Assembly: GCF_002214485.1 (NCBI RefSeq)
Contig: NZ_CP015102.1
Coordinates: forward strand, 1,178,001 to 1,242,000
Direction of reading: 5' to 3'
Source: Thermococcus pacificus
Lineage (GTDB): Archaea > Methanobacteriota_B > Thermococci > Thermococcales > Thermococcaceae
Length of the DNA: 64,000 bases
Shown here: positions 1,213 through 9,262 of the stretch, piece by piece
Layout of the letters: each line of letters begins with the position of its first letter
Position numbering within the stretch: the stretch's first letter is position 1
Notes under the pieces: model-generated
Database searches by the model: none
What the model was told of the DNA's origin: nothing
The model's input: only the letters and a program-made list of their open reading frames with translations
Translations under genes and position numbers: made by a program

Positions 1213-1785
1213 TCAGTCCCTGCCCCTTCCAATCCTGAATATATCCACGCGGGTTATGATTCCCACTATCCTCCCTTCCCGATCCTGGACAAGAACTGCC
1301 GGGTGTTCCTCTAGCAGGTACTTGACTACCTCAAGGTCCTCGTCCTCACTGACTATTGGGAACGGCTCCTCCATGACTTCCATGACCTTGTGATCGTAGA
1401 TGTCCTCGTACTCGAGGCTCTGCCTTACAAGGGTCTTCTCGGTGACTGAGCCGACAACCTTGTTGCCCGCTATCACGGGGATCTGGGAGATGTTGTGTTT
1501 GTTCATGAGCTTAATAACGTTTTCAATGGTCTCGTATGGTTTAACTGACAGAACAGGAGATGACATGACGTCTCTTGCCGTGAGCTGGGTCTTTTTGCAT
1601 TCCAGAAGGGCCTGAAGAATTCGGTTGAACGTGGAGAGCCTTGGGTCGACTTTACCCGTCTCAAGCTTGGCTATATACGCCTGCGTTACCCCCGCCCTCT
1701 CCGCGAGCTCCTCTTGGGTTATCCCCAGCTCCTTTCGAATTCGGCGTATCTCTCTGGGGTCTATCGGCCGGGGTATTGCTACCAT
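1213..1785 (-). CDS. XRE-family HTH regulator with paired CBS domains
   Basis: 190 residues. Residues 8-62 form an XRE-type helix-turn-helix (ELGITQEELAERAGVTQAYIAKLE). Residues about 70-188 are two CBS repeats (ARDVMSSPVLSVKP... and KVMEVMEEPFPIVSEDE...), a module that usually binds adenosine nucleotides or SAM. The architecture implies a DNA-binding repressor or activator tuned by a nucleotide ligand. The longer reading frame to 1929 would overlap the H/ACA RNA; the ATG at 1785 follows GGTGGTTATGT and a TATA at 1821-1831, so it is the better start. It lies directly upstream of the binding-protein gene on the same strand and may regulate it. Confidence 0.9.
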   Translation of the reverse strand: MVAIPRPIDPREIRRIRKELGITQEELAERAGVTQAYIAKLETGKVDPRLSTFNRILQALLECKKTQLTARDVMSSPVLSVKPYETIENVIKLMNKHNISQIPVIAGNKVVGSVTEKTLVRQSLEYEDIYDHKVMEVMEEPFPIVSEDEDLEVVKYLLEEHPAVLVQDREGRIVGIITRVDIFRIGRGRD

Positions 1786-1831: not shown

Positions 1832-1851
1832 TCCGTAGAAACACGTCGAAA

Positions 1852-1980
1852 TGTGGGCCGGGCACAGAGGCCCGCGGTCATCGCTCGCGCGGGTGGATGC
1901 TCCCGGCCCTGTGGGCTCGGCGTGAGCACGCTCCGCTCACGGAACCCGATACCTCGCGGAGGCGGGTTAACCGAGCCCGT
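1852..1980 (-). ncRNA. Double-hairpin box H/ACA guide RNA
   Basis: GC-rich intergenic RNA with two hairpins, each closed by 8 perfect pairs and each followed by ACA. Hairpin 1: GGGCTCGG (1978-1971) pairs with CCGAGCCC (1920-1913), ACA at 1912-1910. Hairpin 2: GGGCCGGG (1909-1902) pairs with CCCGGCCC (1862-1855), ACA at 1854-1852. Hairpin 2 has a clean pseudouridine pocket, an upper stem CCCGCG/CGCGGG and a GA...GATGA loop suited to L7Ae binding; its top-of-pocket to ACA distance is 16. In hairpin 1 the pocket strands TTAACC and GCTCACG complement CGUGAGC-U-G-GGUU, the conserved 23S segment around E. coli U2580. A TATA-like TTTAAATTT lies at about 2031-2039. Target is inference. Confidence 0.75.
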
Positions 1981-2050
1981 GCGAGGAGACTTATTGTCCC
2001 CTCACTGTCGGCGATTAAGAATTGGTGGTGAAATTTAAAAACCTGCCCCT

Positions 2051-9076: not shown

Positions 9077-9113
9077 ACTCTCACCAAAGAGAGTTATGAA
9101 AGAACCTTAAAAA

Positions 9114-9262
9114 TGTGGGCCCGACCGATCCCCCACCCTCATCGACCGCCCGACGGCTCACTCAGGCAGTCCGGAGGGCGGGCCCTGTCCGCCCGGCATC
9201 GTCGCACCCGATCATCGACGGCTCAGCCCCCTCCCGGGCCCGGGCCACCGGGCGTCGTCGGA
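9114..9262 (-). ncRNA. Probable double-hairpin H/ACA-like RNA
   Basis: A very GC-rich, non-coding block between translin and metK. On the minus strand hairpin 1 is closed by CGCCCGG/CCGGGCG and followed, after one base, by ACA at 9188-9186; inside is a CCCGG/TCGGG stem with a GA...GATGA kink-turn. Hairpin 2 is closed by GGGCCCG (9185-9179) and CGGGCCC (9123-9117), then ACA at 9116-9114 and a T-run. A TATA-like CTTAAAATTT at about 9285-9294 would start the RNA at about 9262. The pocket of hairpin 2 is not clearly resolved and no target was recognised, so confidence is moderate. Confidence 0.5.

Follow-up and report, generated by a model that had tools for sequence, protein, structure and literature searches.

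The HgcF (Pab35) H/ACA guide RNA of Thermococcus pacificus has a conserved 5' leader that may pair with 23S rRNA

Introduction

The HgcF family of Rfam (RF00058), whose member in Pyrococcus abyssi is called Pab35, groups archaeal H/ACA guide RNAs of about 170 nt. For the P. abyssi orthologue, the reported guide:target pairs include Pa35.1-L2672 and Pa35.2-L2549, both of them pseudouridines, and the pairing at L2549 has a 3' duplex of one base pair (PMC4652768). In the same study, the Thermococcus guides were described as orthologues of the Pyrococcus guides, and the homologue of hairpin 2 in Thermococcus kodakarensis was found to have switched its internal-loop subfamily (PMC4652768). Seven H/ACA RNAs have been detected in T. 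kodakarensis (PMC4247193), and formation of pseudouridine 2589 in this species depends on Cbf5, Nop10, Gar1 and L7Ae together with an RNA still to be identified (PMC6138745). In eukaryotes, the rRNA contact of the H/ACA RNAs snR30/U17 and snR10 serves ribosome assembly besides, or instead of, modification (PMC7277114, PMC7601244), and both RNAs take part in rRNA processing. Roles of H/ACA RNAs on rRNA beyond modification have not yet been found in archaea (PMC7991803).

In this study, we analysed a stretch of 64,000 nucleotides of T. pacificus (contig NZ_CP015102.1, positions 1,178,001 to 1,242,000), here called the window, to which all coordinates refer unless they are given for 23S rRNA.

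Results and discussion

A previous sequence-only reading of the window had proposed a two-hairpin archaeal H/ACA guide RNA at 1852-1980 and had suggested a covariance-model search. This search (cmscan/Infernal) returned RF00058 on the minus strand at 2012-1841, with 156 bits and an E value of 2.2e-36 (gathering score 70), over model positions 1-168 of 168. The proposal is thus borne out by the family match, as well as by both 8-bp stems and their ACA boxes, and the RNA as first noted is the already known HgcF/Pab35 family. Since the match, of 172 nt, runs from 2012 to 1841, the interval 1852-1980 contains both H/ACA hairpins but misses the 5' leader and the leader hairpin; the strand had not been given. 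We placed the HgcF gene at 1841-2012, minus strand, on the basis of this match and of an alignment of 90 homologous loci (88 distinct sequences). The fold of the minus strand beats 200 of 200 shuffles (z -4.4).

RF00058 was present in 91 of the 94 Thermococcaceae genomes searched. In the rest of the class the covariance model had zero matches, and the leader pattern gave scattered hits with two mismatches and nothing more. The locus of the P. abyssi genome (G007), at 318231-318398, has exactly the coordinates published for Pab35/HgcF (PMC4652768). The RNA of T. pacificus shares sequence, length, two hairpins, pockets, 5' leader and leader hairpin with HgcF/Pab35 of P. abyssi and other Thermococcaceae, and differs from these relatives by small sequence changes only.

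Upstream of the leader lies a TATA/BRE-type promoter, GGTTTTTAAA (2034-2043, minus strand), with the centre of its T-rich/A box at about -26 from the first G of the leader. Across 88 loci, the TATA element is found at about -26, the base at -1 is a pyrimidine in all, and a G occupies +1 in 99%. Hence, the transcript is predicted to begin exactly with the leader. In P. abyssi, RNA-seq puts the 5' end 4 nt further upstream (PMC4652768). Downstream of HgcF, the gene of an HTH-CBS domain protein (1213-1785, minus strand) has a reading frame that extends without a stop as far as a GTG at 1929, which lies within the HgcF RNA. The 65 homologues that lie beside HgcF align from M1 at 1785; apart from two, which have an ATG at the next codon, all carry ATG or GTG there. 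This alignment supports the ATG at 1785, which the sequence-only reading had already taken as the start.

Both hairpins were confirmed on the minus strand. Hairpin 1 with its ACA box covers 1910-1978, and its lower stem GGGCUCGG/CCGAGCCC (1978-1971 with 1920-1913) is a perfect 8-bp helix directly followed by ACA. The same holds for hairpin 2 (1852-1909), with the lower stem GGGCCGGG/CCCGGCCC (1909-1902 with 1862-1855). Compensatory changes are found in both hairpins across the Thermococcaceae loci. In the alignment, the lower stem and the upper (GA) stem of hairpin 1 are 96.9% and 98.3% paired, with two-sided changes in 4 of 8 and 5 of 6 pairs, respectively; in hairpin 2, the corresponding values are 94.8% (3 of 8 pairs) and 98.7% (3 of 6 pairs). 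UGA/GA elements are conserved at the ends of the GA stems, and binding of L7Ae to these stems, as K-turn or K-loop, would be expected in both hairpins. On the other hand, the inner helix ACCCG/CGGGU that Rfam draws in hairpin 1 is 82.1% paired, with two-sided change in 1 of 6 pairs, and copies whose apical loop is truncated (e.g., L087, L089, and L095) lack its partner strand. Judging from the alignment, which favours a GA stem of the CUCCGC/GCGGAG type, the RF00058 consensus structure of hairpin 1 appears to be wrong.

When hairpin 1 is folded as naked RNA, an alternative structure that sequesters the guide arms is better by about 4 kcal/mol (-39.8 versus -35.5). As this fold is not conserved, it is probably blocked by the proteins. 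We considered that this three-way-junction fold, which pairs CGUGAGC with the guide arm GCUCACG, represents a regulatory off state built on a copy of the RNA's own target. Energy minimisation predicts this fold for the naked RNA of T. pacificus. However, the outer pairs of this mimic helix are gone in most genomes, and its constant UGAGC core coincides with the UGA of the K-turn plus the adjoining stem. Moreover, the mimic helix is 82.6% paired with two-sided change in 1 of 7 pairs, against the figures given above for the competing GA stem. A switch based on a self-target mimic is therefore highly improbable, and we rejected it because the helix is not conserved.

The pocket of hairpin 1 fits CGUGAGC-U-G-GGUU at 2668-2680 of the 23S rRNA of T. 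pacificus, where the central U is U2675. This is the target that had been read from the pocket before, at the equivalent of U2580. For hairpin 2, the same reading had written the target as CACAGAGG-UN-UGGAUGCU, for which it knew no match. In this form the target is absent from the rRNA of T. pacificus, as the register was out by one nucleotide; after a shift by one, the pocket fits ACAGG-U-C-GGAUGCU (U2700) and ACAGAG-U-C-G (U2552) of the 23S rRNA. In E. coli numbering, U2675, U2700 and U2552 correspond to U2580, U2605 and U2457. At these three sites, complementarity is found on both sides of U-N, 14-15 nt upstream of the ACA box as read from the sequence. All three lie within the peptidyl-transferase region of domain V, and they are identical in 24 further Thermococcaceae copies of 23S rRNA.

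In P. abyssi 23S rRNA, the predicted uridines become 2672, 2697 and 2549 after subtraction of a constant offset of 26 from the model numbering; with the same offset, the published U2585, U2588 and U2603 fall on uridines as well. U2675 and U2552 of T. pacificus thus stand for Pab35.1-L2672 and Pab35.2-L2549, and the pocket match at U2552 has exactly the one-base-pair 3' duplex reported for L2549. In a permissive bipartite scan of 16S and 23S rRNA, shuffles equal the real matches in 21 of 60 and 22 of 60 cases, which is not beyond chance. The assignments thus rest on conservation and on the published P. abyssi data. Activity at L2672 and L2549 is a literature result on the P. abyssi orthologue and not on T. 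pacificus, for which we infer guide activity, including activity at U2700.

In the mechanism that we propose, L7Ae (at the K-turn or K-loop), Cbf5, Nop10 and Gar1 would bind each hairpin. The internal pocket would pair on either side of an unpaired U-N in 23S rRNA, and Cbf5 would turn that U into pseudouridine, with hairpin 1 guiding U2675 and hairpin 2 guiding U2700 and U2552. Altogether, we are highly confident that the locus is HgcF/Pab35, an archaeal H/ACA guide RNA that is transcribed on the minus strand under a promoter of its own, and that its hairpins would guide these three uridines.

The leader of HgcF did not figure in the sequence-only reading. It consists of GCCGACAG-YGAGG and stands at the 5' end predicted from the promoter. 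The invariant part, GCCGACAG (2005-2012, minus strand), is identical in 83 of the 86 aligned copies, two of the others having A7G and one G1A. The five bases upstream of it vary, so that conservation sets in abruptly where transcription is predicted to start. GCCGACAG is complementary to 23S rRNA at 2598-2605, and inclusion of the following five bases extends the complementarity to 13 bp, at 2593-2605, CCUCGCUGUCGGC, a stretch that corresponds to about 2498-2510 of E. coli, in H89/H90. This is the strongest continuous match of the HgcF RNA to 23S rRNA, and every leader variant except G1A keeps the pairing. Moreover, G2603, on the strand that the leader would bind, is paired with U2675, the target of hairpin 1, in a predicted fold of this part of 23S rRNA. 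These observations suggest that the leader is a testable novelty of this RNA, with moderate support.

A plausible reading is that the near-invariant leader pairs with 23S rRNA at 2593-2605, beside the guided sites, and holds the RNP on that region. It would then act as a tether by antisense pairing or as a chaperone arm, and would position the peptidyl-transferase region or delay its folding during modification, in addition to the guide function. We consider this role possible, although somewhat short of an even chance. The match is rarely reached by chance, since its score is attained by 16 of 20000 shuffles of the same composition and by 29 of 20000 14-mers of the window. In addition, the complement of the 13-mer is confined, in the genome of T. 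pacificus, to 23S rRNA and the HgcF gene itself. We estimated a net binding of -4 to -6 kcal/mol at 37 C and of -1 to -3.5 kcal/mol at 85 C. Against this role, the whole 172-nt RNA finds an equally good best match to 23S rRNA in 17 of 100 shuffles, and the leader was examined on account of its conservation rather than from a blind scan of the whole RNA. The target of hairpin 1 gained no more accessibility from masking of the leader site than from masking of random 8-mers, of which 18 of 52 and 21 of 54 performed as well. Given the weak to moderate net binding and the unspecific effect of masking, we make no claim that the leader opens H90, and opening of H90 to expose U2675 was rejected on the masking result. 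Covariation cannot test the pairing, because the rRNA site is invariant within the family.

The leader is followed by a hairpin (1981-2005, minus strand; RNA G8-C17 with G23-C32 in the minimum-energy fold), which would compete for about five of the 13 pairs with 23S rRNA. Its stem sequence differs between genera while the hairpin is retained, and a column-wise count gives only 88% pairing because of alignment gaps. Within this hairpin, the block at 1993-1997 (minus strand; RNA positions 16-20) contains an invariant ACA, although the bases that pair with it differ from genus to genus. As a separate observation, the CAA of this block could pair with UUG at 2587-2589 of 23S rRNA.

The main alternative is that the leader is conserved for RNA stability, for protein binding or for an intramolecular contact, and that its complementarity to 23S rRNA is coincidental. 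In favour of this explanation, when the invariant 8-mer is taken on its own, about 10% of shuffles of the same composition have an exact complement in rRNA, and the leader hairpin imposes constraints on positions 9-13 as well. Conversely, a match over all 13 bp is seldom reached by chance, the one observed lies in the peptidyl-transferase region, on which both hairpins act, and no conserved intramolecular partner of the leader was seen. We give this explanation about an even chance.

A natural variant also bears on the tether or chaperone role. The divergent copy L096 (genome G090, about 490-655) is a leaderless HgcF in which a TATA element lies directly before hairpin 1 and both guide hairpins are kept. 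The leader is therefore separable from the guide function, and this copy counts against the tether or chaperone role. The assembly of G090 contains no 23S rRNA sequence. In two relatives from the class without RF00058 match (L126 and L127), 23S rRNA has a different final base in the leader site (CUGUCGGU) and further changes around the targets of hairpin 2.

The site of the leader also raises the question of whether the leader hairpin could guide the orphan pseudouridine 2589 of T. kodakarensis, which corresponds to 2585 in P. abyssi and to U2588 in T. pacificus. This uridine sits 5 nt from the stretch complementary to the leader, and the published 17-nt substrate, which corresponds to 2582-2598 of T. 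pacificus, includes six bases that would pair with the leader. However, the perfect helix stops at C2593, so that U2588 is not framed in an internal loop, and no ANA box follows the leader hairpin. In addition, no RNP of a P. abyssi guide RNA formed that pseudouridine (PMC6138745), in a report that does not specify which part of Pab35 was tested. On account of the wrong geometry and the lacking ANA box, we consider this reading very unlikely and rejected the idea that the leader guides modification of the orphan site in an H/ACA-like manner. Tentatively, we regard a tether or chaperone role as more plausible than a role as orphan guide.

Another guide RNA meets the same stretch of 23S rRNA. 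The 5' guide arm GCGAGG of hairpin 1 of HgcG (Pab40, RF00064; locus L121, G000:C1:1388016-1388286:+) pairs with 2593-2598 of 23S rRNA, within the stretch complementary to the HgcF leader. In HgcG, this arm forms one side of a canonical pocket for U2591 (L2588 of P. abyssi), whereas the HgcF leader is a continuous antisense element without a pocket. Because the target of GCGAGG lies inside the leader stretch, HgcG and HgcF would compete for this site or succeed each other on it. Antisense 5' ends resembling the HgcF leader were not found in HgcE, HgcG or snoR9: the overlap of HgcG is that of its guide arm, and GGGCCGACAG of snoR9 is the end of its stem plus the ACA box. HgcE (Pab105, RF00060) is itself encoded in the window, about 7 kb from HgcF (9097-9223, minus strand, 87 bits); it also has a conserved 5' extension, and its best rRNA matches fall outside that extension. 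The window further contains the C/D box guide RNA sR28 (RF01136; 36256-36310, minus strand, 56 bits).

Conclusions

The results of our study show that a known guide RNA was recovered independently from raw sequence, with its main target read correctly. We further propose, with considerable reservation, that HgcF is a bifunctional archaeal H/ACA RNA, in which two guide hairpins are combined with a leader GCCGACAG-YGAGG that would pair with 23S rRNA at 2593-2605 to tether the RNP or to chaperone the region. No account of a function of the HgcF/Pab35 leader, or of its pairing with 23S rRNA, was found in the literature that we searched, which fell short of the primary Pab35 paper, and an earlier notice is possible. 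With regard to snR30/U17 and snR10, we claim no homology, and the role of the archaeal leader is only proposed; a pairing of the leader outside the pockets is predicted, and the masking analysis does not support an opening effect.

If the leader does pair with 23S rRNA, HgcF would be an archaeal H/ACA RNA with an rRNA contact beyond its modification pockets, and an archaeal counterpart of the out-of-pocket rRNA contacts of eukaryotic snR30 and snR10. Such a pairing would bear on the open question of non-modification roles of these RNAs in archaea (PMC7991803). Moreover, the leader site adjoins a pseudouridine whose guide RNA is still to be found (PMC6138745), in a family that includes genetically usable organisms such as T. 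kodakarensis.
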